NCBI GenBank assembly: GCA_030625925.1 | Contig: DAOUPY010000021.1 | Coordinates: 1 to 11,167, forward strand | Reading direction: 5' to 3' | Length of the DNA stretch: 11,167 nt | Source: Fusobacteriaceae bacterium | Lineage (GTDB): Bacteria; Fusobacteriota; Fusobacteriia; Fusobacteriales; Fusobacteriaceae | Shown: positions 1 through 11,167 of the stretch, one piece after another | Layout: each line of letters starts with the position of its first letter | How positions within the stretch are numbered: position 1 is the stretch's first letter | The notes under the pieces: model-generated | Told to the model about the DNA's origin: nothing | Database searches by the model: none | The model's input: the letters and a program-made list of their open reading frames with translations, nothing else | Translations under genes and position numbers: made by a program

Positions 1-1
1 A

Positions 2-103
2 ACTGCTATAGCAGTTTCAAATGGTGATTTAGAATTGGTTTTAGAATCAAAGGTTGCTGATGGTGTTAAAAGTACAGAAGGAAAACTTTGGTTAGATTAC
101 TAA
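2..103 (+). CDS. C-terminal end of an unidentified protein (5' partial)
   Basis: An open frame enters from the left edge and ends at TAA (101-103), giving 33 residues that finish in ..STEGKLWLDY. An intrinsic terminator starts about 20 bases after the stop, which supports this being the real end of a + strand gene. The fragment is too short for me to recognise a family: it shows no obvious membrane segment or catalytic motif. It converges with gshF. The frame is supported by ordinary codon use for this genome and by the terminator; the function is unknown. Confidence 0.6.
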   Translation, partial: TAIAVSNGDLELVLESKVADGVKSTEGKLWLDY

Positions 104-122
104 AAAAATAAATTAGATATTA

Positions 123-152
123 AAAAGGGTTTGAGATTTCTCAAACCCTTTT
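123..152. terminator. Bidirectional intrinsic terminator between convergent genes
   Basis: A perfect 13-bp stem (123-135 with 140-152) has the core GGGTTTGAG and a 4-base loop ATTT. It carries A tracts on the left and T tracts on the right, so it can act on both strands. It ends the + strand gene stopping at 103 and the - strand gshF stopping at 157, and sits exactly between the two stop codons. Confidence 0.93.
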
Positions 153-156
153 AATT

Positions 157-2484
157 TTAAAATCCCAAACTATCCAGAATTTTTTCTCCTAAATCTCTAT
201 TTTTACCCTTATATGGATAGCAGTGAATATGGATAGCAGGATTAAAGTTGATCTCGATTATCCCATGATTACTGTCGTTAGGAAGTTCTTTAATATCATT
301 GATCATCATATCTACACCGCAGATAACAGCACCGGCAGCCTTGGCTGAATCTATAGCGATCTGTTTGTATTCATCTAAAATATCATCGGTAAAATCTATA
401 CTGTCTCCTCCAGTACTGATGTTGGAATTTTCTCTCAGGTATATAGTTTCATTTTCTTTTGGAATATAGTCAAAATCTAAATTTTGAACAGCTAAAAATG
501 TCTCCTCAGCCTCTCCTAAAACAATTTTCTGTAAGGGCTTTTTGTAGCCTGTTCCCCTTAAAACATCCTTGTTTTTTTCTTCCACTAATGTTCTGATAGA
601 GTGCTTTCCGTTTCCTATAACATTTGCCGGGACTCTATGCAGGATTCCTACAACCTTATCATTTAACACAAAAATCCTGTATTCCTTCCCCTCTATAAAT
701 TCTTCAATCAGGATGGAATCATCTTCTCCAAAGGCAAAATTTAAAGCATTTTGATAATCTTTTGGAGTAAATTCTTTAGGCAGGATAGTTATACCTAATC
801 CAAAATTAGTAGAATTGGGTTTAACCACTGTTTTAGCCCCCTGATATTTGTAAAAATCATCCACAGCATCTTGGGAATTGGTATAATATCCCCCTTCAGG
901 AACTTTTATCTTGCTTTTTTCCAATATTTTTTTAGTGACTAATTTATTTTCCATGATTAGTACTGTACTATATGAATCCAGGGAAGTTTTAGTAGCTTGG
1001 ACTACATATTCTGTCTTTTCACCCTTACTTAACGAGATAAAATTTTCCTTTCGATCCAAGATCTCAAATTTGACCCCCCTTTTAATGGCATCCTTGAGTA
1101 AAATCTGGGTAGAGAGTTCCAGATCTTCATATCCTCTTAGGGCGAAGTTATCAACCTGACTTTCTTTATAGTGTTTTTTAGCTAAATCCAAGTTGAAATC
1201 TATAAACCCCTTCTCTCTAATTCCGCTTTCAATTTGGCTGGAGACAAGCAGGTCAGTATTATAGAATGACTCTACAGCCTCTCTCAGGGTGTTTGTGTAA
1301 TTTAAATTAGAAATTCCTAAGTCTTCTACAGTTTTTTCTATCTTAGAAATCATATCTAATCCTAAGTCTTTTAAAAACTTAAATTCCCCATTATCGAATA
1401 ATTCTAAGTCTTTTTTTCTGCCATAGTGGGCCACAAGATTGTGATTTTTATTTCCTTCCCAGATCTCTTTCTCTGTGAGGTCATTTTCATCTGTAAACAG
1501 ACAGAACAATAAAAATAAGTGTACAAAGTATAACTGATCTATGGACATTCCTGTTTTTATCATGGGATTTAAATCTAATAATCTGACTTCTAAATATTCA
1601 ATTCCATCTTCTTCGATGGATTTTAATAAGTTTGTATTATCTTTAGCTTTTAATCTGATTGGGCTATAGTATTCCTTCTCACTGATTAATTTTTCCTGAG
1701 ATATCAATTTTTTGATGTCTTCTACATATTCTGCCCTGGAATTGTATGAGATGTTAAAAACTTCCTTGTTTTTATACCCGCACATTCCATTTCGAAAGGA
1801 GTTACCTGAGGTGTAGGAGAATGAATCAAGTGCCACCTCATCTAACATATCCACACATTTTCTACTGTATGTGCCGTGGATACTTGGATTGGCTCCAAAT
1901 AAGTATATAAGGATCCATCTATATTTAAAGAAATTCCTGGATGTTTTCAGATAAATTTCATCTTTGAATAACTTGAAATCAGAACTCCCAGACTCCTTGT
2001 ATAATAGATTTAAAAATTCATCTTTAAAGGAAAAGTTATAGTGGATTCCCGATAAAAGTTGTTTTTGTTTACCATATTTTTGAGAAAGATAGTCTCTATA
2101 TTTTTGAGCACGATTTCCCTCGCAGGTTTCTTCAAATGTAGAGACAGGAATATCCTCCTCAGCTGGCAGTGATGGGGGAGTACTTTGAGGCCAGAGATAT
2201 TCGTCTTTTAGCTCCAAACTCACAAGATCGTGTAAACTTTCTAAAAAATTATAAGTTTCCTCAATAGTATCCATAGAGGGGGTAATCATCTCTATTTGAC
2301 TCTCAGAAAAATCAGTTGTGATATATGGATTTTTCAATTTATTACCAAAGACACCAGGATGTTTTGTCATGGCAAGATGACCATGAGAGTCTACCCTGAC
2401 GTTTTCCTTTTCTATCCCGAAATTACATTTAGTTAAAAATCTATTTAATTTTTTCTTTTTGATTATATTTATTAAATTTTGCAT
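157..2484 (-). CDS. gshF: Bifunctional glutamate-cysteine ligase / glutathione synthetase (GshF type)
   Basis: The 775-residue protein matches the usual GshF length of about 750-780. It should carry out both ATP-dependent steps of glutathione synthesis in the cytoplasm: Glu + Cys to gamma-glutamylcysteine, then addition of Gly. The N-terminal half is a GshA-like ligase, with FGIEKENVRV near residue 22, TDFSESQIEMITP near 57, FGANPSIHGTYSRK near 196 and SYTSGNSFRN near 223. The C-terminal half is an ATP-grasp domain: VVKPNSTNFGLGITIL near 553, EEFIEGKEYRIFVLNDKVVG near 594, NSNISTGGDSIDFTD near 687, and the metal/ATP motif GIIEINFNPAIHIH near 741. The ATG at 2484 has a GGGGG Shine-Dalgarno about six bases upstream. 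It is a single-gene unit ending at the shared terminator. Both domains look intact. In an anaerobe-like genome a glutathione pathway suggests thiol-based oxygen or electrophile defence, which is an inference. Confidence 0.95.
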   Translation of the reverse strand: MQNLINIIKKKKLNRFLTKCNFGIEKENVRVDSHGHLAMTKHPGVFGNKLKNPYITTDFSESQIEMITPSMDTIEETYNFLESLHDLVSLELKDEYLWPQSTPPSLPAEEDIPVSTFEETCEGNRAQKYRDYLSQKYGKQKQLLSGIHYNFSFKDEFLNLLYKESGSSDFKLFKDEIYLKTSRNFFKYRWILIYLFGANPSIHGTYSRKCVDMLDEVALDSFSYTSGNSFRNGMCGYKNKEVFNISYNSRAEYVEDIKKLISQEKLISEKEYYSPIRLKAKDNTNLLKSIEEDGIEYLEVRLLDLNPMIKTGMSIDQLYFVHLFLLFCLFTDENDLTEKEIWEGNKNHNLVAHYGRKKDLELFDNGEFKFLKDLGLDMISKIEKTVEDLGISNLNYTNTLREAVESFYNTDLLVSSQIESGIREKGFIDFNLDLAKKHYKESQVDNFALRGYEDLELSTQILLKDAIKRGVKFEILDRKENFISLSKGEKTEYVVQATKTSLDSYSTVLIMENKLVTKKILEKSKIKVPEGGYYTNSQDAVDDFYKYQGAKTVVKPNSTNFGLGITILPKEFTPKDYQNALNFAFGEDDSILIEEFIEGKEYRIFVLNDKVVGILHRVPANVIGNGKHSIRTLVEEKNKDVLRGTGYKKPLQKIVLGEAEETFLAVQNLDFDYIPKENETIYLRENSNISTGGDSIDFTDDILDEYKQIAIDSAKAAGAVICGVDMMINDIKELPNDSNHGIIEINFNPAIHIHCYPYKGKNRDLGEKILDSLGF

Positions 2485-2608
2485 ATATATCCCCCTGACG
2501 GCTCTTAGCCCAATGAATAGATGAAAATGAATAATGAATGATTAAATTCAAAACATTTTTTTTGACACTAATCTACACCAATTAAAGTCTTATTTTTACT
2601 ACTGATGT

Positions 2609-2848
2609 CACGAATTTTAACGAATAAAGCAATAGAACACGGATGACACGGATTTAATGGATAAAATCAGATTTAGAAACTCTAAGTTTTTAAATTAAAA
2701 TTCACTAAGATATTTTTTTATATTTTTAATTTTTTTATATTCTTCGTGTAATTAGTGACTAAGGTTTGGTCTTATCTATTTTTAATCTGTGTATACTTTA
2801 GTATCCGTGTTCTATTTCTTTTTTATATATTCATTTGCGTTATTCGTG
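2609..2848. repeat. Large imperfect inverted repeat made of CACGAAT/CACGGAT-type units
   Basis: The 327-bp gap between gshF and the MATE gene holds no gene. Its ends are CACGAAT (2609-2615) and ATTCGTG (2842-2848). Nested inside is a perfect 14-bp pair, AATAGAACACGGAT (2631-2644) and ATCCGTGTTCTATT (2803-2816). Between the arms lie further degenerate units such as CACGGAT, CACAGAT, CACTAAT and CACGAAG, spaced roughly 10-12 bases apart on one strand or the other, around a very AT-rich centre. Similar units continue left to about 2562. The right arm overlaps the 3' end of the MATE gene. It looks like a non-autonomous dispersed intergenic repeat (MITE-like). I see no transposase. Confidence 0.7.
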
Positions 2849-4224
2849 GTTAAGGTTTTAATTTCTTTAAAGTTTACTTGCAGTATGTTATTTTCTTTAA
2901 ATCTTTTTAGATGGATTATAAACCAAATAGGAAGTACTATTCCTTTGAGTATACTGCTAATTGTGATACTCCACCAAATACCATTTAACTCTAATGCTGT
3001 TGCAGATAGTAGGAGAGCCATAGGTATCCTAGCTCCTGTAAGAATTATACTTACAATAGACGGTGGCAATGTCTTCCCAATACCTTGGAATCCTCCTACT
3101 GTGGTCATTTCAATTACCATAAATAGTTGTGATACCCCTAATATTCGAAGATAACTAGTTCCTAATTTGACTATATAATCATCCTGTAAAAATATCCTAA
3201 ATATCGGTTCTGGGAAGACTATCAAGATGAAACTTACAAAGACTCCCAATACAGAGATGATTCCAATGGCATTGAAATATCCTTTTTTTATCCTGTCATA
3301 TTTTTTAGCACCATAGTTTTGACCTACAAAGGCGGCTAACGCTCCTTGAAACCCACCTGCTGTAATCCATGAAATGGATTCTATTTGGACACCAATCCTT
3401 TGAACTGCTATGGCATCTGCTCCCCAGTTAGCGATGATTCTGGCAATAAACACAGAAAACCCTGTGAAAAGAATTCTTTGAGCAGCTATGGGAGTACCCA
3501 TTTTAATGATGTCTCTGGTTTTTTCCATATCATATCTAAATCCATGGGTAAATATATGATGTTTTTTTCTCAAATATATAAATAAAATAGTAGAAACTAT
3601 TGTCTGAGCCAAGACTGTGGCTATTGCAGCTCCTACGACTTCCAGCCTTGGGAATCCAAATAATCCAAAGATCAAGATTGGATCTAAGACTATATTTAGG
3701 ATAAGGCCGATACTTGTTATTAAAAATGGTGTTTTACTGTCTCCATGACCATTGAATATCCGTGTGAAAACCAGTGATAGGGATGAAAAAAATATCCCAA
3801 AGGCTGTAATGGTCATATAATCTATGGCCATTTTTTCAATTTCTGGATTGTTTAATTTGAAAAATCCTATAAGCTGGTATCTGGAAATTAAAATTAAGAT
3901 TATAAAAACAGTGATAATACCTATGGTATTGATAATAGAGGTTTCAGCATAGGAATTTGCTTTTTTATAATTTTTTTCTCCGACCGACTGAGATGTTCTG
4001 ATCCCTGTCCCTATAAAAATGAGGGCAGTTATTGCAAATCCAAATTTCAGGAAAAATCCTGCTGTACCAACGGCAGCTACAGCTCCATTTCCCAGCCGTC
4101 CAATCCAAATCATATCTATCATATTGTATGCCATCTGAATCAATGACATCCCCATGATAGGCAGGGAAAGGAGGGTTAGTTTATAGAGTATATTTCCCTC
4201 GGTTAAATCATATTTTTTTTTCAT
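2812..4224 (-). CDS. MATE family multidrug/cation efflux transporter
   Basis: The 470-residue inner-membrane protein has the length and repeated hydrophobic segments of a 12-helix MATE antiporter, which exports drugs or metabolites in exchange for Na+ or H+. The N-terminus (ILYKLTLLSLPIMGMSLIQM, then NMIDMIWIGRLG) is the characteristic MATE first helix and loop. The second half repeats the pattern (GTPIAAQRILFTGFSVFIA, then GFQGALAAFVGQNYGA). The frame is open 34 codons further upstream, but those residues are Arg/Glu-rich and come from an intergenic repeat. The ATG at 4222-4224 has a strong AAAGGAGG five bases upstream and begins MKKKYDLTEGNILYKL, as MATE proteins do. It follows queA after 213 bases. 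The last 12 codons and the TAG stop lie in the inverted repeat 2609-2848, so the C-terminal tail (TTNNANEYIKKK) is repeat-derived. The substrate cannot be told. Confidence 0.92.
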   Translation of the reverse strand: MKKKYDLTEGNILYKLTLLSLPIMGMSLIQMAYNMIDMIWIGRLGNGAVAAVGTAGFFLKFGFAITALIFIGTGIRTSQSVGEKNYKKANSYAETSIINTIGIITVFIILILISRYQLIGFFKLNNPEIEKMAIDYMTITAFGIFFSSLSLVFTRIFNGHGDSKTPFLITSIGLILNIVLDPILIFGLFGFPRLEVVGAAIATVLAQTIVSTILFIYLRKKHHIFTHGFRYDMEKTRDIIKMGTPIAAQRILFTGFSVFIARIIANWGADAIAVQRIGVQIESISWITAGGFQGALAAFVGQNYGAKKYDRIKKGYFNAIGIISVLGVFVSFILIVFPEPIFRIFLQDDYIVKLGTSYLRILGVSQLFMVIEMTTVGGFQGIGKTLPPSIVSIILTGARIPMALLLSATALELNGIWWSITISSILKGIVLPIWFIIHLKRFKENNILQVNFKEIKTLTTNNANEYIKKK

Positions 4225-4239
4225 GTTTCCTCCTTTAAC

Positions 4240-4437
4240 CCTCTCTCGCCTGTCGGCACTCTCTTTACTCCTCCCTCTTACAGTTTCTCTAAAAATAGAG
4301 AAACCAACGTAAATGCTTCGAAGCAATTTCGATAGTTTCCTCTGATATCACATTTAGAAAATTCTTTTTAACTATAAGAATTTTTAATATTCGTAACCTC
4401 GTGGAACCGACAACAAGGAAGGAGTTAAAGTCGAGAA
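4240..4437 (-). repeat. Structured intergenic repeat, copy B (queA-MATE spacer)
   Basis: This element starts right after the queA stop and ends just before the Shine-Dalgarno of the MATE gene. Read on the - strand it opens with CCTTCCTTGTTG. It then carries a perfect 12-base palindrome TGCTTCGAAGCA (4314-4325) and a 9-bp hairpin GTTTCTCTA/TAGAGAAAC (4283-4291 with 4296-4304), followed by purine-rich GGGAGGAGT and AGAGAG. Copy A at 5514-5625 has the same order of parts in the same orientation. Copy B also has an extra segment with a 9-bp AT-rich hairpin (4358-4366 with 4376-4384). Confidence 0.6.
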
Positions 4438-5505
4438 TTAATATATAAACATTGCATCTCCAAAACTAAAAAATTTATATTTTTCTTTTACAGCTTCTTC
4501 ATAAACACTAAACATGAAGTCCTTTTCAGACAGTGCTGAAACCAACATAAGCAAGGTCGACTTAGGTAGATGAAAGTTTGTAATCAATGCATCCACTATT
4601 TTAAACTCATATCCCGGATATATAAATATCTCAGTATCTCCAGAGGCTGCCATTAGCTTCCCATAACTATCAACAGCCGATTCCAACGTTCTTATAGACG
4701 TTGTTCCTACTGCAACTACCCTTCTTCCCTCTGCCTTTGCTCTATTTACAACTTCTGCTGTTTTTTCTGGGACTTCAAAAGTTTCAGAATGCATCTTATG
4801 TTCCAATACATTTTCAGTCTGCACAGGCCTGAACGTTCCCAGTCCAACTTCTAAATATACATCTACTATCTCTACACCTTTTTGAGCTATTTTTTCAAAC
4901 AATTCCTCGGTAAAATGCAAGCCAGCTGTAGGAGCTGCTACTGATTCGCCTTTTTCGGCATAAACAGTCTGATATCTATCGCCATCTTCTAATTTTTCCG
5001 TAATATATGGCGGCAATGGCATCTGCCCTAATTCATGAATTATTTCTTCAAAAACTCCATCAAAAGTAAATTCTAAGATTCTGTTTCCATCATCCTTTAC
5101 CTCTTTTAAGGTAGCTTTTAATTGGCCTTCTCCAAATATTATCGTTTGATCTAACTTTAATTTTTTAGCACGTCTTACCAGACATTCCCATCTATTTAAT
5201 TCCAGCCTTTTTAATAAAAATACTTCCATTACTGCTCCACTTTCTTTTTTACCTATAAGTCTTGCAGGAATTACCTTGGTAGAATTTCGAACGAGAACAT
5301 CTCCCTCATTTAGATAATCTAAAATATTATAGAATTTTTTATGTTCTATCTCTTTTTTGGTTTTATCTACTACTAATAATCTAGAATGGTCTCTTGGCAT
5401 TGTAGGAGTTTGTCCTATCAATTCCTTCGGCAGGTGATAGTCGTAATCTGACAGTAATATTTCCTCTTTTATCTCTTTTTGAATCTCTTCTTTTTTTTTA
5501 TCCAA
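4438..5505 (-). CDS. queA: S-adenosylmethionine:tRNA ribosyltransferase-isomerase (QueA)
   Basis: QueA transfers and isomerises the ribose of SAM onto 7-aminomethyl-7-deazaguanine at position 34 of GUN-anticodon tRNAs (Asn, Asp, His, Tyr), giving epoxyqueuosine. Family motifs run in order: [16 protein letters not shown] (about 19-34), [28 protein letters not shown] (about 68-85), MPLPPYI, the strongly conserved [14 protein letters not shown] (about 190-203), [10 protein letters not shown] (about 219-228), [11 protein letters not shown] (about 266-276) and [17 protein letters not shown] (about 308-324). At 355 residues it is slightly longer than the usual 340-345, because of a Lys/Glu-rich extension of about 17 residues before the conserved start. 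The start codon is TTG (5503-5505), with AGAGG about eight bases upstream; no ATG lies between it and the first motif. It sits between two copies of a structured repeat and is probably co-transcribed with hflC. Confidence 0.95.
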
Positions 5506-5513
5506 TTTCTATA

Positions 5514-5625
5514 CCTCTTTCTCGACTCTTCCTTTTTATAGTTTCTCTTCGCAAAAGAAACTAAAGCTAAAATATCTAGCCTTAGTTTTCCTTTTACATC
5601 GAGAAAAACGCCAACAAGGAAAGGG
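5514..5625 (-). repeat. Structured intergenic repeat, copy A (hflC-queA spacer)
   Basis: The repeat begins right after the hflC stop and runs to the queA Shine-Dalgarno. On the - strand it has CCTTTCCTTGTTG, then hairpin 1 (CTAAGGCTA/TAGCTTTAG, + strand 5561-5569 with 5577-5585), hairpin 2 (GTTTCTTTT/AAGAGAAAC, 5541-5549 with 5553-5561), then purine-rich AAGGAAGAGT and GAGAAAGAGG. Each hairpin contains one G-U pair that works only in the - strand RNA and would be an A-C mismatch in the opposite transcript. The order of parts matches copy B at 4240-4437. Confidence 0.6.
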
Positions 5626-6471
5626 TTATTTTGTTTGTAACATCTTCCATAATTCTGAATCTGTAGATAATATCACCTTAGTTTTACTATCCATAATTGC
5701 CTCATAGGCTTCCAAAGTTTTCATAAATTTATAAAATTCAGGATCTCTATTATATGCATCTGCATATATTACTAGAGCTTGTGCATCTCCTTCACCTTTT
5801 AATTCCTCTGATTTTCTATAAGCTTCTGCTAATATTATAGTCTTTTCCTGGTCAGCTTGAGAAGTTATTTCCAGTGATTTTTCTCTTCCTTCAGCTCTAT
5901 ATTTTTTAGCCTGTTGATTTCTTTCTGCTTCCATCCTTTTATAGATGTTTTGTTCATTTTCTTTTGGTAGTTCTACCCTTTTTATCCTTACATCTATTAT
6001 ACTAATCCCTGAAGATTTAGCTTTTTCTCTACTTTCCTCAGTTACATTTTTCATAATAGCATCTCTTTTAAAAGATATTATCTCAGACAGAGTATATTTC
6101 CCCATCTCTCTTCGAAGTTCAGAATATACAATGTCATCTAATCTTGCTTGAGCTCCCGCTATATTTTGTACACTTTGTAAAAATAATAGAGGATCTGCAA
6201 TTTTCCATCTAGCATAGTTATCTATTACTATACTTTTCTTTCCTTTAATTATAATTCCCTTAGGTGCTGCATCATAGTTTAACAACCTTTTATCAAAATA
6301 TCTAACATTATCGATAAATGGAACTTTTACATATAATCCAGGTTCCATTACGACTCTTTTTGGTTTCCCCAATCTAATCACAACAGCATTTTCAATTTCT
6401 GAAACTTGAAATAAAGATGTAGATGACACTATTACAACCATTGCTAGAATACTAATTATTAGTTTTTTCAT
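5626..6471 (-). CDS. hflC: HflC, SPFH-domain modulator of the FtsH protease
   Basis: The 281-residue protein has an N-terminal signal anchor (KKLIISILAMVVIVSSTSLF). A SPFH/band-7 domain follows: VSEIENAVVIRLGKPKRVVMEPGLY from about residue 23, DNVRYFDKRLLNYDAAP near 54, and RWKIADPLLFLQSV near 88. After it comes a charged coiled-coil region rich in Glu/Arg/Ala (MEAERNQQAKKYRAEGREK..) and the HflC-type GDAQALVIYADAYNRDPEFYKFMKTLEAYE block. With HflK it forms a large membrane cage around FtsH that controls degradation of membrane proteins. The frame extends seven codons upstream to a TTG, but no ribosome binding site precedes that. The ATG at 6469-6471 has GGGGGAGG upstream, although at a rather long spacing. 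This start overlaps the hflK 3' end by 20 bases, which suggests translational coupling. The protein is shorter than E. coli HflC (about 334). Confidence 0.92.
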   Translation of the reverse strand: MKKLIISILAMVVIVSSTSLFQVSEIENAVVIRLGKPKRVVMEPGLYVKVPFIDNVRYFDKRLLNYDAAPKGIIIKGKKSIVIDNYARWKIADPLLFLQSVQNIAGAQARLDDIVYSELRREMGKYTLSEIISFKRDAIMKNVTEESREKAKSSGISIIDVRIKRVELPKENEQNIYKRMEAERNQQAKKYRAEGREKSLEITSQADQEKTIILAEAYRKSEELKGEGDAQALVIYADAYNRDPEFYKFMKTLEAYEAIMDSKTKVILSTDSELWKMLQTK

Positions 6472-7537
6472 TAGCTCCCACACCTCCCCCAATTAAGTTT
6501 ATAATACTTCCTTTTAATCCAGGATCTACTATTATTTTTTCAACATTTGGCATTGTTTTTTCCATAGTTTCCAGATACATCCTTGTTTTTGTAACCTCTT
6601 TACCCAATGAATATTTTTCACTTAATTTTATAAATTTCGCTACATCACCTTGTGATTCTTTGACTCTTTTTTCCTTATAAGCTTCCGCTCTATTCACCAT
6701 TTGAGATGCCTGTCCACGAGCATTAGGAATAATATCATTTCTATAACCATTAGCTTCATTTATAAATCTAGCTCTATCTTCACGAGCATTAGCTACTTCT
6801 TTAAAAGCCTGCATAACTTCTTCTGGCGGCCCTACATCTTGCAGCTGCAATCCTATTATCAGTATTCCAGTTCCATAACTATCCAGTATTTCCTTTAATT
6901 TTTCACGTGTTTCCTCTTGAATTCTCTCTTTTCCAACGGTTAGAGTTTCCTCTATTCCTTTACTTCCTACAACCTGTCTAAGAGCCGATTCAGATGCACT
7001 TTTTATCGTTTCATACTGATCTCTTACATTGAATATATAATCTTTTAAGTTACTGATTTTATATTGAACACTAAAATCAACATCGATCATATTTTCGTCC
7101 CCTGTAAACATCAATGATTCCTCTGGGATATTTTGATATCTTGCAGGTGGTCCAGCCTCAACAGTTTCAAACCCTATCTCTACCCTATAGACTTTTGTTG
7201 TTTTAACAACATATCTTTTTCCAATTGGGCTGGGAAAATACCAGTGCATTCCAGGTCCTACAGTTTTAGAATATTGTCCAAATCTAAGAAGTACTCCCTC
7301 CTCATCTGGTCCAACTTGATATATACCAGTTCCTAAAAAAACAAGAAACAATATTACTATTATTCCTCCCAGTCCACCTTTCATACGATTCCTAGAAGAT
7401 TTTCTTGGTCCCCCTCTCCCAGGATCATCATCCTCTGGCGGTTCATCTTGATCATTTCTTTCCTCACCCTTGCCGTAGAATATTTCTCTTATAAATCGTT
7501 TAACATCTTCTAAATCATCAAACCTTATCTCACCCAT
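6452..7537 (-). CDS. hflK: HflK, SPFH-domain modulator of the FtsH protease
   Basis: The 361-residue partner of HflC has a short cytoplasmic N-terminus that is acidic and Gly/Pro-rich (DEPPEDDDPGRGGPRKSS, about 31-48), as is typical of HflK. One transmembrane helix (GGLGGIIVILFLVFLGTGIY, about 54-73) and the SPFH domain follow: VGPDEEGVLLRFGQYSKTVGPGMHWYFPSP (about 75-104) and FTGDENMIDVDFSVQYKI. The C-terminal helical region includes the family hallmark IIGLQLQDVGPPEEVMQAFKEVANAREDR. In E. coli the HflK-HflC complex surrounds FtsH. The ATG at 7535-7537 has GGGGGAG five bases upstream. The gene follows prmC after 44 bases and overlaps hflC, so the pair is clearly one unit. A short element just upstream of its Shine-Dalgarno resembles that in front of gshF. 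Confidence 0.93.
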   Translation of the reverse strand: MGEIRFDDLEDVKRFIREIFYGKGEERNDQDEPPEDDDPGRGGPRKSSRNRMKGGLGGIIVILFLVFLGTGIYQVGPDEEGVLLRFGQYSKTVGPGMHWYFPSPIGKRYVVKTTKVYRVEIGFETVEAGPPARYQNIPEESLMFTGDENMIDVDFSVQYKISNLKDYIFNVRDQYETIKSASESALRQVVGSKGIEETLTVGKERIQEETREKLKEILDSYGTGILIIGLQLQDVGPPEEVMQAFKEVANAREDRARFINEANGYRNDIIPNARGQASQMVNRAEAYKEKRVKESQGDVAKFIKLSEKYSLGKEVTKTRMYLETMEKTMPNVEKIIVDPGLKGSIINLIGGGVGANEKTNN

Positions 7538-7581
7538 AATGCTCCCCCTTGACGACTTAAAGCCGACTGATTAATCTTCAA

Positions 7582-8751
7582 TTATCTGTTAAGTTTTCCG
7601 ATTACCATTCTTTGGTGTTCTGCATAGTCATAATATACTGTTATATTTAAAAAATCATTTTTTTCCATTATTTTTTTTACAGCTTCCCCCTGATTGTAAC
7701 CTATTTCAAAAGCCAAATACCCGCCTTTCACCAGGTGGTCAGGAGCATTTTTGGAGATCTCTTCATAGAAATACAAACCATTATCAGGAGCAGTCAGAGC
7801 TAATTTAGGCTCATATTTTAATACTTTCTCCTCCAATACTTCATATTCATAGTCAGGAATATAGGGCGGATTAGAAACTATCAGGTTAAACTTCTTATAT
7901 TCTACATCCTTTAGTATATCAGACCTCATAAATTTCACATTGGCGGCACTATTTTCTATCTTATTTTTGTTGGCTACCGCCAAGGCTTTCTCGCTTATAT
8001 CCACTCCTAAAACCATAGATTTAGGAAGTTCTTTCCCTAAACTTATAGAAATAGCTCCACTGCCGCTGCCGATATCTAATATCTTAGGTTCTTCTATATC
8101 ACCCATTATTTCTATACATTTTTCAACCAATAATTCTGTTTCAGATCGCGGAATAAGAACCGATTCATCTACATAAAATTTATAGCCGTAAAACTCCTCA
8201 AACCCCAAAACATATTGAAGGGGTCTCTTATTTTTTCCTATCTCCAGGAGCATCTCTCGAATTTCTTTTTTTTCTGCCTCTGTTATTTCCCTTTCAAAAT
8301 TCAGAGTCATCTCCATCCTAGAAACTTTTAAAACATGACTAAATACATGTTCTACATCTAGTTTCGCTTCCTTAGAACCATGTTTTTTTAGATATACTAT
8401 ACTCTTAGTCAGGAGTTCTAAAAACTCCTTCCTGTTATTTCTTTTGGTTTTATCACTCTCTAGGTCTTTCATCATTTCATTATTTTCAATTTTTATATCT
8501 TTGTTTTCAAGACTCTCATGCCTTAGGAGTTCATCAAATCCAATTTTTTTCTTTATCATTTTTAATATATACTTTTTAATTTCCACCCTTTCATCATCTA
8601 TAAGGGGTCTGTCATATTCTGCATAGAGTAATATCCTGTCGATAGATAAGACATGAGATATTACCTTTTCTGCTTCTAATCTAGGTTTAGAAAAGGAGTA
8701 TTTTTTAAAATACTCCTCACTCCATCTCAATATGTCGAGTAGATCTTTCAT
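7582..8751 (-). CDS. prmC: PrmC, release factor N5-glutamine methyltransferase, with duplicated N-terminal domain
   Basis: PrmC methylates the glutamine of the GGQ loop in release factors, using SAM. The C-terminal catalytic domain is complete: GFEEFYGYKFYVDESVLIPRSETE (about 183-206), SAM motif I ILDIGSGSGAISISLG (about 224-239), the acidic ribose-binding D251 in LGVDIS, and the substrate motif NPPY (about 294-297). At 389 residues it is about 100 longer than the usual 275-290. The excess is explained by two copies of the N-terminal helical domain: residues about 3-76 and about 109-182 align without gaps over 74 residues and share KK.....L..E...SHVL. The copies are joined by a Lys/Glu/Asn-rich linker. 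The ATG (8749-8751) overlaps the prfA stop in TAATG, so translation is probably coupled to that of its substrate RF1. Confidence 0.95.
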   Translation of the reverse strand: MKDLLDILRWSEEYFKKYSFSKPRLEAEKVISHVLSIDRILLYAEYDRPLIDDERVEIKKYILKMIKKKIGFDELLRHESLENKDIKIENNEMMKDLESDKTKRNNRKEFLELLTKSIVYLKKHGSKEAKLDVEHVFSHVLKVSRMEMTLNFEREITEAEKKEIREMLLEIGKNKRPLQYVLGFEEFYGYKFYVDESVLIPRSETELLVEKCIEIMGDIEEPKILDIGSGSGAISISLGKELPKSMVLGVDISEKALAVANKNKIENSAANVKFMRSDILKDVEYKKFNLIVSNPPYIPDYEYEVLEEKVLKYEPKLALTAPDNGLYFYEEISKNAPDHLVKGGYLAFEIGYNQGEAVKKIMEKNDFLNITVYYDYAEHQRMVIGKLNR

Positions 8752-9824
8752 TAGTCTACCATACTTTGTAGTTGATCTGCCTGGTCAAATGTTATTAATC
8801 CATCGATTATCTCATCTAAATCTCCATCTAGGATATAGTCTAACCTATGAAGGGTAAGCTTGATTCTATGGTCAGTTACTCTTCCTTGTGGGAAGTTATA
8901 TGTTCTTATTTTTTCAGATCTAGCTCCAGTTCCTACTTGTAACTTTCTATTTCCCTCTACCTCTGACCTTTGCTTTTCTACCTCTGCCTCAAATATCTTT
9001 GCAGCTAATATTTTCATAGCTTGTTCTCTGTTTTTTAATTGTGATCTACCATCTTGACATTGAACGATAGTTCCTGTTGGCATATGTGTTATTCTTACTG
9101 CCGAATCAGTAGTATTTACATGCTGACCACCTGATCCACCTGCTCTGTATGTATCTATCTTTAGGTCAGATGTTTTTATAGCTGTTTGTGCTACGTCATC
9201 TATCTCAGGTAAGATTGCTACTGTAATTGTAGAAGTATGGATTCTTCCAGATGCTTCTGTAGCTGGTACTCTTTGTACTCTATGTACTCCTGATTCAAAT
9301 TTTAATCTAGAGTAAGCTCCCTGACCTTTGATCAAGAAAATTATTTCTTTCAATCCACCTACACCAATTTCATTTTTATCCATTATCTCTATCTTCCATT
9401 TTCTTCTTTCAGCATATCTACTATACATTCTGAATATATCTCCAGCGAATAGGGCAGCCTCATCTCCACCTGCTCCACCTCTTATCTCTACGATTACGTT
9501 TTTATCATCGTTAGGGTCCTTTGGGAGTAATAATACTTTCATTTCTTCTTCCAGCTCAGGTAATCTTTCATCTATTTCATTTTTTTCCTCTAACATCATC
9601 TCTTTCATTTCTTCATCTTTTTCATCTTTTAAATTTTCCTTGATGAATTCTAATTCCTCACAATACCCTTTATATTCCCTATATTTCAATACAATCTCTT
9701 CCATGTCATTTATGGCCTTATTGTATTCGATCATTCTCTTATGATCTGTAGCCACCTCTGGAGTCGCTAACAATGCATTTAATTCATCATATTTCTTTGC
9801 TACGTCATCTAATTTTTTAAACAT
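8751..9824 (-). CDS. prfA: Peptide chain release factor 1 (RF1)
   Basis: RF1 reads UAA and UAG stop codons and triggers peptide release in the ribosome. The protein has 357 residues, the normal length for the family. It has a helical N-terminal domain (1-100, Lys/Glu-rich), VEIRGGAGGDEAALFA (about 112-127), the codon-recognition PAT tripeptide in HRVQRVPATEASGRIHTS (about 181-198) that marks RF1 rather than RF2, and the catalytic GGQ at 232-234 in YRAGGSGGQHVNTTDSAVR. The ATG at 9822-9824 is preceded by AGGAAGG about nine bases upstream. It is the first gene of the - strand cluster, with a putative promoter about 110 bases upstream. Its last base pair overlaps prmC, whose product modifies its GGQ. 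No frameshift site or internal stop is seen. Confidence 0.97.
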   Translation of the reverse strand: MFKKLDDVAKKYDELNALLATPEVATDHKRMIEYNKAINDMEEIVLKYREYKGYCEELEFIKENLKDEKDEEMKEMMLEEKNEIDERLPELEEEMKVLLLPKDPNDDKNVIVEIRGGAGGDEAALFAGDIFRMYSRYAERRKWKIEIMDKNEIGVGGLKEIIFLIKGQGAYSRLKFESGVHRVQRVPATEASGRIHTSTITVAILPEIDDVAQTAIKTSDLKIDTYRAGGSGGQHVNTTDSAVRITHMPTGTIVQCQDGRSQLKNREQAMKILAAKIFEAEVEKQRSEVEGNRKLQVGTGARSEKIRTYNFPQGRVTDHRIKLTLHRLDYILDGDLDEIIDGLITFDQADQLQSMVD

Positions 9825-9936
9825 CTATTCATCCCTTCCTACAACTTTATTTTTTTACAATATCTATTATTATTCTATTTTATTCTTAAGATTTATAAAA
9901 GTATATACCTTTAAAATCCAATACTTTAACTTATAA

Positions 9937-9965
9937 AGTATACCATAATATGTTATTAAAAACAA
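9937..9965 (-). promoter_or_regulatory. Putative sigma-70 promoter of the prfA cluster
   Basis: On the - strand, TTGTTT (9960-9965) and TATACT (9937-9942) are separated by 17 bases, with an extended -10 TG one base upstream of the TATACT. Transcription would start near 9930, leaving a leader of about 105 AT-rich bases before prfA in which I see no strong structure. The -35 box is weak (3 of 6), so the extended -10 carries most of the support. Confidence 0.6.
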
Positions 9966-9995
9966 TTTTACCTAAACAACTGAAATTTCGCATTA

Positions 9996-10073
9996 TCACT
10001 AGCCTTTGAAACCTCGGATTTTTCATAAGTAATTTGAAAAATTATGACAAAGTTAGGGGTTAACAGCTAGTGA
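9996..10073. repeat. Nested inverted repeat in the prfA-asnA divergent region
   Basis: The outer arms TCACTAGC (9996-10003) and GCTAGTGA (10066-10073) are perfect complements. They continue on the left directly into CTTTG (10004-10008), which pairs with CAAAG (10048-10052), leaving a 13-base bulge on the right. An inner 8-bp stem, ATTTTTCA (10018-10025) with TGAAAAAT (10035-10042), closes a 9-base loop. It lies upstream of both divergent promoters, so neither transcript contains it. It could be a remnant mobile element end, a protein-binding site or an older terminator; I cannot decide. Confidence 0.45.
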
Positions 10074-10106
10074 AGTACCATTTTTTCAGCACTATAATAT
10101 TTATTA

Positions 10107-10135
10107 TTGACATAAGAAAGAAAATGGTTTATACT
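10107..10135 (+). promoter_or_regulatory. Sigma-70 promoter for the asnA leader and asnA
   Basis: A consensus -35 TTGACA (10107-10112) is followed after exactly 17 bases by TATACT (10130-10135), which matches the -10 consensus at 5 of 6 bases. Transcription should start near 10142, about 24 bases before the leader ORF and about 270 before asnA. A promoter this strong upstream of a terminator fits regulation after initiation. Confidence 0.88.
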
Positions 10136-10165
10136 TCTTACAAATAGATTATAAGGAGTAAGATT

Positions 10166-10237
10166 ATGTTTAAATTAATTTCAATTTCTAACAATAATAA
10201 TAATAATAATAATATGAGGGGATTTGTAGACAGATAA
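10166..10237 (+). CDS. Asparagine-rich leader peptide of asnA (putative attenuator peptide)
   Basis: This short ORF of 23 codons encodes MFKLISIS, then eight consecutive Asn (one AAC and seven AAT, 10190-10213), then MRGFVDR and a TAA stop (10235-10237). It has a textbook Shine-Dalgarno, AAGGAG (10153-10158), seven bases before the ATG, and lies about 24 bases after the predicted transcription start. The next + strand gene is asparagine synthetase, so the repeated codon matches the product of the pathway. This is the hallmark of leader peptides such as those of trp, his or thr operons. Ribosomes lacking Asn-tRNA-Asn would stall in the run and change folding of the RNA downstream. The stop codon lies inside the loop-proximal hairpin 10232-10250. 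The peptide itself probably has no function. I do not know a named family for it. Confidence 0.85.
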   Translation: MFKLISISNNNNNNNNMRGFVDR

Positions 10238-10304
10238 CATTTTGTTATCTTTAGGCAAATCCATTTTGTGATAAAAACAAGATGCAGATGCCTAGAACCC
10301 CTCA
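10215..10304 (+). promoter_or_regulatory. Mutually exclusive RNA stems of the asnA attenuator
   Basis: Several complementary stretches overlap. Stem a: GGATTTG (10220-10226) with CAAATCC (10256-10262), capped by a perfect 8-bp hairpin AGATAACA/TGTTATCT (10232-10239 with 10243-10250). Stem b: TTTAGGCA (10250-10257) with TGCCTAGA (10289-10296, one G-U). Stem c: TGAGGGG (10215-10221) with CCCCTCA (10298-10304). Stem d: TGCCT (10289-10293) with AGGCA (10329-10333) in the terminator arm, possibly stacked with CCCT (10299-10302) and AGGG (10316-10319). Stems a and b share bases, and b and d share bases, as expected for an attenuator switch. The pairings are seen by eye and their energies are not computed. 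Confidence 0.6.
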
Positions 10305-10320
10305 ATGAAACTATAAGGGA

Positions 10321-10355
10321 AACCATCAAGGCAATTTTGCTTTGATGGTTTTTTT
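10321..10355 (+). terminator. Intrinsic attenuator terminator upstream of asnA
   Basis: The arm AACCATCAAGGCAA (10321-10334) pairs with TTGCTTTGATGGTT (10337-10350), with one G-U pair in the RNA; the innermost pairs probably open to give a workable loop. A run of seven T (10349-10355) follows directly. It lies about 80 bases after the leader peptide stop and about 58 bases before the asnA ATG. No gene ends here other than the leader ORF, so its position marks it as an attenuator rather than a gene-end terminator. Confidence 0.9.
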
Positions 10356-10412
10356 AATTTATTCTACCTTATTTCCTTATAATCTTAAACAAATATATTC
10401 AGGAGGACAACC

Positions 10413-11167
10413 ATGAAAAAAATAACAGAGAAATATGAAAGCAAATTATCACTATTAGAAACAGAGGTCGCAATAAAAAAACTTAAAGATTTTTTTGAAA
10501 GTTCACTATCTTACGAACTTAACCTAACTAGAGTTTCTGCTCCCTTATTTGTAAAAAGCACATCTGGATTAAACGATGACCTAAACGGAATAGAAAAAGC
10601 AGTTTCTTTTTCAACTGAACATGAGGAGAGACTAGAGATCGTTCATTCTCTGGCAAAATGGAAGAGAATGGCTCTATACAGATACGGATTTAAAACTCAT
10701 ACAGGTTTATATGCCGACATGAATGCCATAAGAAAACACGAAGATCTTTCTGAAATCCATTCTCTATATGTAGATCAATGGGATTGGGAGAAAATAATTT
10801 TAGAAGAAGAAAGAAACATCACAAAACTCAAAGATATTGTTGATAGAATTTACAAAGCCTTTAAAAAGACCGAGAGTTATATTCAAAGGGAATATCCGGT
10901 TCTTACCCTTACTCTCCCTGAAAAGATCCACTATATTACGGCCATTGAATTAGAGAAAAGATACCCTGCTCTTTCTCCTAAAGAGAGAGAACATGCCATC
11001 ACCAAGGAATATGGTGCTGTATTCATAATTGGAATTGGGGATATTCTTCCTTCTGGAGATCGTCATGATGGACGTGCTCCAGACTACGATGATTGGGCAC
11101 TTAACGGTGATATATTATTTTGGAACCCTATATTAAATAAATCTTTGGAGCTGTCTTCTATGGGAAT
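10413..11167 (+). CDS. asnA: Aspartate-ammonia ligase, AsnA type (3' end outside window)
   Basis: AsnA makes asparagine from aspartate and ammonia with ATP going to AMP + PPi, in the cytoplasm. It is a class II aminoacyl-tRNA-synthetase-like enzyme, unlike glutamine-dependent AsnB. The window holds 251 codons of the roughly 330 expected. Family motifs in order: APLFVKSTSGLNDDLNGIEKAV (about 43-64), VHSLAKWKRMAL (about 77-88), GLYADMNAIR (about 98-107), LYVDQWDWE (about 118-126), the active-site region GAVFIIGIG (about 201-209), RAPDYDDW (about 221-228), LNGDILFWNP (about 230-239) and ELSSMG at the cut edge. The ATG at 10413 has AGGAGG (10401-10406) six bases upstream. It is expressed from the promoter at 10107-10135 through the Asn leader and terminator, so control by the supply of charged tRNA-Asn is likely. 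No sign of frameshift or disruption is seen. Confidence 0.97.
   Translation, partial: MKKITEKYESKLSLLETEVAIKKLKDFFESSLSYELNLTRVSAPLFVKSTSGLNDDLNGIEKAVSFSTEHEERLEIVHSLAKWKRMALYRYGFKTHTGLYADMNAIRKHEDLSEIHSLYVDQWDWEKIILEEERNITKLKDIVDRIYKAFKKTESYIQREYPVLTLTLPEKIHYITAIELEKRYPALSPKEREHAITKEYGAVFIIGIGDILPSGDRHDGRAPDYDDWALNGDILFWNPILNKSLELSSMG

Follow-up and report, generated by a model that had tools for sequence, protein, structure and literature searches.

The his- and trp-type leaders of Proteobacteria combine a leader peptide rich in codons for the end product with alternative RNA pairings and an intrinsic terminator, and in the trp leader the control codons lie inside segment 1. T-boxes also sense tRNA charging; they bind the tRNA directly, and translation is not needed. 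Classical attenuators are usually handled operon by operon, and control of the asparagine synthetase gene asnA is usually ascribed to proteins or to T-boxes. We analysed an 11,167-nucleotide stretch of a Fusobacteriaceae bacterium (assembly GCA_030625925.1, contig DAOUPY010000021.1, positions 1 to 11,167; hereafter the window), in which a short open reading frame (ORF) with a run of Asn codons precedes asnA. With a probability of about 0.88, we read this element as a ribosome-mediated transcription attenuator that would sense charged tRNA-Asn and control asnA, and as a member of a modular class of Fusobacteriaceae attenuators built on one RNA, here called the chassis. The element shares with the his- and trp-type leaders the three features named above; it differs from them in that its codons specify Asn before asnA and are placed upstream of segment 1, not inside it. 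The kind is classical leader-peptide attenuation and not categorically new. What is new, as far as searches of the open literature show, is the Asn specificity and a shared, readdressed chassis in Fusobacteriaceae.

Leader-peptide attenuation of his genes is summarised in PMC9413887, and His leader-peptide attenuators before hisZ, hisS or his operons have been described in Bacilli, Peptostreptococcaceae and Erysipelotrichales (PMC2965389, PMC9413887). In the accessible parts of these two papers the leaders are His leaders only, with no chassis shared by several specificities, and the word Fusobacteria is absent from both main texts. The candidate attenuators uORFC-8-2 (cysS) and uORFC-13-1 (aroF) of Alphaproteobacteria and Acholeplasma resemble the chassis in having a predicted short ORF with control codons plus a terminator, and differ from it in that each has a single specificity; in the available portions of that source Fusobacteria are named merely among the scanned phyla (PMC8632094). 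As far as their accessible text goes, PMC4833913 plots leader genes for Fusobacteria among the groups judged too small to read, and PMC2494555 gives no T-boxes in two Fusobacteria/Thermotogae genomes. Neither an Asn leader peptide nor a Fusobacteriota attenuator is described in the available parts of the open literature, PMC5009743 included, a body of work outside which most subscription papers lie.

All parts of the element are on the forward strand. A sigma-70-type promoter (10107-10135) consists of the -35 box TTGACA (10107-10112) and the -10 box TATACT (10130-10135), separated by a 17-nt spacer and matching the consensus at 11 of 12 positions; the five congeners compared keep attgaca and a TATAMT -10 box. 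From its position, the leader transcript would be expected to start near 10142. The Shine-Dalgarno sequence AAGGAG (10153-10158), also kept by congeners, precedes a leader-peptide ORF of 23 codons, MFKLISISNNNNNNNNMRGFVDR (10166-10237, stop codon TAA at 10235-10237), whose translation is predicted from the sequence and its relatives. Eight consecutive Asn control codons, AAC first and then seven AAT, occupy 10190-10213. An intrinsic terminator, AAACCATCAAGGCA-ATTT-TGCTTTGATGGTTT, extends with its T run over 10320-10355 by folding; a terminator scan placed it at 10316-10355 and found this one terminator against a shuffle mean of 0.2. The asnA Shine-Dalgarno sequence AGGAGG lies at 10401-10406, and asnA (aspartate--ammonia ligase, asparagine synthetase A) runs from 10413 to 11165, where the contig end truncates it. 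Its product resembles homologues and matches TIGR00669 at E 1.3e-75 and 254.7 bits, under the cut-off of 292.8 for a gene that is incomplete at the contig end. The leader (10142-10362) folds at -61.3 kcal/mol, as compared with a shuffled mean of -34.85 (z -6.3; none of 200 shuffles equal). The original prediction, made from the letters of this stretch, had named a near-consensus promoter, a strong Shine-Dalgarno sequence, a 23-codon ORF with eight consecutive Asn codons, overlapping complementary segments and a terminator before asnA, and every one of these parts was recovered.

Alignment of 19 asnA leaders revealed five segments after the Asn run in genera g1, g5, g8 and part of g13 (the labels of this analysis are g for genera, G for genomes and L for loci). 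These are 19 of the 33 asnA leaders described below; L114, near-identical to L015, L007, which has lost the attenuator, and 12 leaders of a Cetobacterium type were excluded. The segments form two exclusive pairing sets, 1:2 with 3:4 as against 2:3 with 4:5, the last of these helices being the terminator. Segment 2 uses its 5' part to pair with segment 3, and segment 4 is the portion of the terminator's first arm nearest the loop. In g1, TTTAGGCA pairs with TGCCTAGA in the off state and TGCCT with AGGCA in the on state; in g8 (L011, L014) the corresponding pairs are GGTACAAATC with GATTTGTACC and TACCCGA with TCGGGTA. By folding and alignment, segment 1 of the window, GGATTTG (10220-10226), lies within the final codons of the leader ORF and is the partner of segment 2, TTTAGGCAAATCC (10250-10262). 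Within segment 2, CAAATCC (10256-10262) pairs with segment 1 and TTTAGGCA (10250-10257) with segment 3, and these two uses share just 2 nt. Segment 3, TGCCTAGA (10289-10296), is predicted to pair with 10250-10257 in the off state or, through TGCCT, with segment 4 in the on state; segment 4, AGGCA (10329-10333), is the 3' end of the first terminator arm. Two further stretches take part in the predicted folds. Segment 1', TGAGGGG (10215-10221), pairs in an untranslated closed fold with CCCCTCA (10298-10304), and the CCCT of the latter pairs with AGGG (10316-10319) in the antiterminator.

We propose that when Asn-tRNA is ample, the ribosome would reach the stop codon and cover segment 1, so that 2:3 forms and the terminator 4:5 halts transcription. 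When Asn-tRNA is scarce, the ribosome would linger on the Asn codons, immediately before segment 1, and 1:2 would form, leaving segment 3 free to seize segment 4 and RNA polymerase to continue into asnA. A third state is predicted for the window's genus, in which, with no ribosome or with a ribosome on Asn 1-5, segment 1' would pair with 3' (10298-10304) over 2:3 and the terminator would form.

The dependence on ribosome position was computed in 20 sequences by stepping the ribosome A site codon by codon, masking the RNA to +13 and ending it at segment 4, and taking the probability of the antiterminator pairing, P(3:4); the folds are equilibrium folds of RNAs that end upstream of the asnA ribosome site. 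In the window P(3:4) was 52% on Asn 6, 80% on Asn 7 and 0-1% at every other codon. The leader is accordingly predicted to be closed and off on Asn 1-5, open on Asn 6-7 and off from Asn 8 on. The closed fold, with the ribosome on Asn 1-5 or absent, pairs 10215-10221 with 10298-10304 and 10250-10257 with 10289-10296 and leaves the terminator free. Peaks likewise fell on Asn 10-11 of 12 in L003, Asn 3-4 of 5 in L005 and Asn 7-9 of 9 in L009. In g8 and g13 P(3:4) was in most cases high up to and including the Asn codons and dropped after them; the exceptions were L115 (87% even at the stop codon), L112 (at most 65% on Asn and 79% one codon later) and L124 (low ahead of the run, 88-97% on Asn except the last). 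When the footprint was varied from +11 to +16 in four sequences, the peak shifted by about one codon and remained inside the Asn run. The mean switch effect for 19 leaders from 17 genomes was 0.62, as compared with 0.11 for dinucleotide shuffles of the middle part of each leader scored with the identical statistic (sd 0.06, maximum 0.27, 60 sets). Predicted folding gave what defines an attenuator, an exclusive antiterminator that depends on the ribosome's position at control codons. Since opening is predicted only on late Asn codons, the window's leader would respond to slow Asn supply and close when translation stops altogether. The original prediction that a ribosome stalled by Asn starvation allows read-through is supported, with a refinement from this modelling: the antiterminator is freed on Asn 6-7 and not, at equilibrium, on Asn 1-5.

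Conservation upstream of asnA was assessed for 49 asnA copies from 47 of 61 Fusobacteriaceae genomes and for 90 outgroup copies. The latter comprised 13 of the 22 copies of the neighbouring family in the order and 77 copies from named non-Fusobacteriaceae records of Clostridia, Bacteroidota and others (79 loci minus two Cetobacterium). An ORF with a ribosome site and at least 4 N in 7 residues, at most 450 nt upstream of asnA, was present at 33 of the 49 family copies and at none of the 90 outside, three of which have less than 150 nt of upstream DNA. As a control, only 3 of 691 Shine-Dalgarno-preceded ORFs of 8-70 aa were as rich in Asn (354,648 bases, both strands, mostly Fusobacteriaceae), and two of these three are leader peptides of other members. 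Named carriers of the Asn-rich asnA leader are Fusobacteriia bacterium 4572_74 (L032), an uncultured Cetobacterium sp. (L041) and Cetobacterium sp. UBA6069 (L047). Relatives retain the Asn run while the length of its longest unbroken stretch (3 to 12), the choice between AAT and AAC and the flanking peptide change. Relatives that keep the terminator and have lost the ORF or its Asn codons would have spoken against the original prediction; the Asn run stays wherever the leader is found, and the search of related genomes that the prediction had proposed bore it out. Fusobacteriia bacterium 4572_74 (L007, the same locus as L032) is the sole congener without the terminator and has the whole attenuator deleted. 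This natural deletion keeps the promoter and the Asn codons and brings the Asn run directly up against the ribosome site of asnA; because switch and terminator are gone, its asnA may be unregulated.

The pairings were also examined for covariation, in the 19 asnA leaders and in 28 chassis members. Helix 1:2 was paired in 98.5% and 98.0% of cells, respectively. Among the 28 members, the helices of the on state were 93.9% paired, and both sides had changed in 38 cells against 12.9 in shuffled alignments (0 of 500 as high), and these helices were not modelled as pairs in the search model. The off-state helices were 84.1% paired with 82 cells changed on both sides against 27.3 shuffled, a value that is partly selected because these helices were built into the model that retrieved the second tier of members. 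The terminator helix was 99.5% paired in the 19 asnA leaders, with two-sided changes at 6 of 10 pairs. This last result bears on the best-surviving alternative, in which control is translational or Rho-based: the ribosome on the leader would mask or unmask either a Rho site or the ribosome site of asnA. The asnA ribosome site does begin 46 nt past the T run, a distance in keeping with such control, yet the terminator helix is kept with two-sided changes and a T-run terminator is found in all 20 folded leaders and in 10 Cetobacterium-type leaders, and we regard Rho-based or translational control as very unlikely.

Support for the modular class came from covariance models. A model of the Asn element, R1, recovered the asnA leaders first and then a second tier of mostly full-length matches, 20 of which were inspected and proved to be the same RNA with other codon runs. 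Model R2 was built from 28 sequences, 14 of them not at asnA (training set A3; 28 of 39 sequences, with near-identical rows and Cetobacterium Met leaders left out); its columns begin at segment 1, and the control codons are excluded. The window matches R2 at 10214-10355 with E 5.9e-9 and 75.8 bits, a match that is by construction, since the window sequence is in the training set; independent support for chassis membership comes from the codon-gene fit of the other R2 matches. At E 0.1, R2 matched 50 of the 61 family genomes; with the threshold at E 0.001 it matched 48 of 96 genomes across the order, two of these 48 being from the neighbouring family. There were at least 150 matches in the family; among the matches listed, 21 were at asnA and 129 elsewhere, and 118 of these 129 were read while the 11 weaker ones were left out. 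The 118 include 112 distinct sequences, and both L256 and L257 are counted, identical copies in mirror positions on one contig (G082:C5) that are probably an assembly artefact. An ORF was called at segment 1 in 117 of the 118. An ORF that ends at segment 1 and has a Shine-Dalgarno of at least 4 was present in 110 of 118, as compared with 58 of 986 random places, and four equal residues in six in 77 of 118, as compared with 4 of 986. Besides Asn, the codon runs were of His, Met, Pro, Tyr, Thr and a mixed aromatic group, with single matches of Trp and Thr/Ile/Met. Further members in the window's own genome are a His leader before an amino-acid ABC binding protein (G000:C93:3755-3896, L186) and a Thr leader before thrS (G000:C363:892-1007, L270).

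For the comparison of leader codons with the gene that follows, each downstream gene was assigned to a class by its similarity to 18 representatives, 17 of which were run against NCBIfam (the exception is L185, a Cetobacterium metN); NCBIfam scores were often below the cut-offs because the proteins are truncated. A leader was counted as fitting if at least three cognate residues fell in the 12 before segment 1. His leaders fitted before the amino-acid ABC binding protein (34 of 35) and hisZ (7 of 7), Met leaders before metN (6 of 6), metG (2 of 2), homoserine dehydrogenase (2 of 2) and O-acetylhomoserine sulfhydrylase (4 of 4), Thr leaders before thrS (9 of 9) and aromatic leaders before DAHP synthase (4 of 4). 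Pro leaders fitted before putP in 13 of 22 cases, the remaining nine having two Pro, and Tyr leaders before tyrS in one of four, the other three having 3-5 Tyr just outside the counted stretch. The single cases, Trp before an ABC permease without NCBIfam match and Thr/Ile/Met before asd, also fitted (1 of 1 each). Overall, 84 of 97 leaders fitted their gene (permuted mean 24.8, maximum 38 in 2000), a figure that is partly circular because the expected amino acid for the ABC binding protein (35) and the permease (1) was set after seeing the leaders. The closest resemblance of the binding protein is to cystine binders, followed by those for Lys/Arg/Orn, glutamine, arginine and finally His, so that its His label derives from the leader. 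For genes that name their own amino acid, the fit was 49 of 61 (49 of 60 without L257; permuted mean 11.5, maximum 23). Omitted from the 97 were 11 AGCS carriers behind Tyr runs, eight leaders without a classed gene and two odd genes. We propose that these other codon runs would serve the matching transport, biosynthesis and tRNA-ligase genes.

Several results weigh against the attenuator and its class. Segments 3 and 4 were hand-picked for the P(3:4) and switch-effect tests. Shuffles did as well as the natural sequence in 28 of 60 cases for L115, 12 for L117, 9 for L118 and 8 each for L119 and L125. Equilibrium folding gives no read-through for a stall at the first Asn codons of the window, a poor fit to simple starvation unless folding is kinetic; how fast the RNA folds decides which state holds on Asn 1-5. 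In the asnA leaders alone, the on-state helices had no more double changes than shuffles did (3 pairs against 3.2), a count in which segment 3 is misregistered in five g1 rows. A coarse ribosome-position test on the non-Asn classes was weakly positive (66 of 108); it is biased because a maximum is compared with a single value, and it was kept out of the main support. Finally, 16 of the 49 family asnA copies have no Asn leader inside 450 nt: 2 of 2 in g6, 3 of 3 in g9, 7 of 12 in g13, 2 of 3 in g2, 1 of 2 in g11, and L022 (g4). At L022 the contig end truncates the leader and the Asn run is still seen, and in genome G070 (g13; L116, L164) an Asn attenuator lies about 0.7 kb upstream of asnA with other, partly masked DNA between.

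In a second alternative the short ORF is incidental, and tRNA-Asn or Asn is sensed directly by an RNA of the riboswitch or T-box-like kind. The strong structure of the leader is of the kind such an RNA would have, and T-box candidates stand before asnS in the same genus. No Rfam 15 family, His_leader RF00514 and T-box RF00230 included, matched the window at the gathering score, nor did any match 20 further loci (18 with the chassis and two Cetobacterium-type asnA loci), and T-box RF00230 had no match in the incomplete genome of the window; these T-box searches scored at most 31 candidates in any one genome. The folding by ribosome position also distinguishes states at the Asn codons, and direct sensing appears to us more remote still than control through Rho or translation. 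At E 0.001, T-box matches occurred in at least 14 of the 61 family genomes, two of them above the cut-off. In five congeners (L294-L298) a T-box candidate lies 350-440 nt upstream of asnS; these candidates score 72-78 bits against Rfam's 93, the three copies inspected are without most of the antiterminator part, and the specifier looks like AAC. We also considered whether the asparaginyl-tRNA synthetase (AsnRS) gene is absent from the window's genome, where the weak matches are open frames of 624 and 502 aa, and rejected this. The gene is present in 57 of 61 family genomes, all seven congeners among them, and the apparent absence is therefore taken as a gap in an 81.75% complete assembly.

The remaining alternative, that the AAT run is a microsatellite prone to slippage in an AT-rich genome, its ORF without a role and asnA under the terminator alone or a protein, can draw on run lengths that differ among relatives in a repeat-like way and on the 23-34% GC of the 19 loci, but it is as improbable as direct sensing, given that so few control ORFs are comparably rich in Asn, that AAC and other codons break the runs while Asn is retained, and that homologous RNAs carry a His, Met, Pro, Tyr or Thr run that mostly matches the gene.

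Attenuation by a ribosome reading Asn codons may extend to asnA leaders of another build. The Cetobacterium-type asnA leaders of g4, g2 and g11 (L021, L024, L026, L041, L047, L127, L130, L131 and L133-L136) carry up to 22 Asn codons with Cys codons interspersed, and the R2 chassis is not apparent in them; none is among the R2 matches listed at asnA. In their predicted folds the terminator arm was 44-68% blocked with the ribosome in the Asn run, and likewise before the run, and blocking dropped at the stop codon in 10 of 10 sequences (weakest in L024, from 55% to 48%; unshuffled sequences only). Perhaps these leaders apply the same logic on another chassis.

Five-Tyr leaders before AGCS carriers form a further group on the chassis (L178, assigned by TIGR00835, and L235, L236, L239, L244, L246, L248, L249, L255, L262 and L269 by similarity), which suggests from the codons that these carriers import tyrosine. 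At L178 a second short ORF with a Tyr run lies past the first terminator, a possible tandem attenuator, and the long gap before the gene at L235, L236 and L239 may conceal a second Tyr attenuator. At L247 and L266, leaders rich in Trp, Phe and Tyr precede genes not obviously connected with these amino acids, one for an oligopeptide-type binding protein and one for a GldA-like dehydrogenase.

Outside the family, R2 gave seven matches in five of 30 genomes of other groups at E 0.1, the 30 having been picked from the outgroup asnA loci. In Clostridia and other Bacillota, His runs were found before hisZ (L285, L288, L289) and before hisS (L287), the genes being checked by NCBIfam. These four may be the same element as the published His leaders, and His leaders in Clostridia are already on record in the accessible part of PMC9413887. 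L286, from the non-Fusobacteriota Peptostreptococcaceae bacterium VA2, has a Tyr/Phe-rich leader before a BrnQ-type branched-chain carrier (TIGR00796). L290 and L291 (E 0.0992 and 0.0744) were rejected as chassis members, having no leader. The neighbouring family has two His leaders, L293 before hisZ and L292 before an ABC binding protein identified by resemblance.

For the family as a whole, we lean, by somewhat better than even odds, towards a single inherited, codon-programmable chassis that runs much of Fusobacteriaceae amino-acid control (asnA, his, met, put, tyr, thr, aromatic) and is readdressed by codon exchange, with three states in the window's genus and a second reading of tRNA-Asn there by the T-box candidate before asnS. 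Within one family, the genes that one RNA precedes cover six or more amino acids (Asn, His, Met, Pro, Tyr, Thr) and a mixed aromatic group, so that a codon-to-gene code would be readable from the genome. The chassis would yield substrate predictions, such as tyrosine for the AGCS carriers, and would offer a ready test of whether codon exchange alone can readdress an attenuator. The window's genus may also allow sensing by a T-box to be compared with sensing by a ribosome for one and the same tRNA within a single cell. As in T-box RF00230, one RNA design with specificity set by the codon stands before transport, biosynthesis and tRNA-ligase genes; unlike the T-box, the reader would be the ribosome and not direct tRNA binding. 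If true, the chassis would be the ribosome-read counterpart of the T-box.

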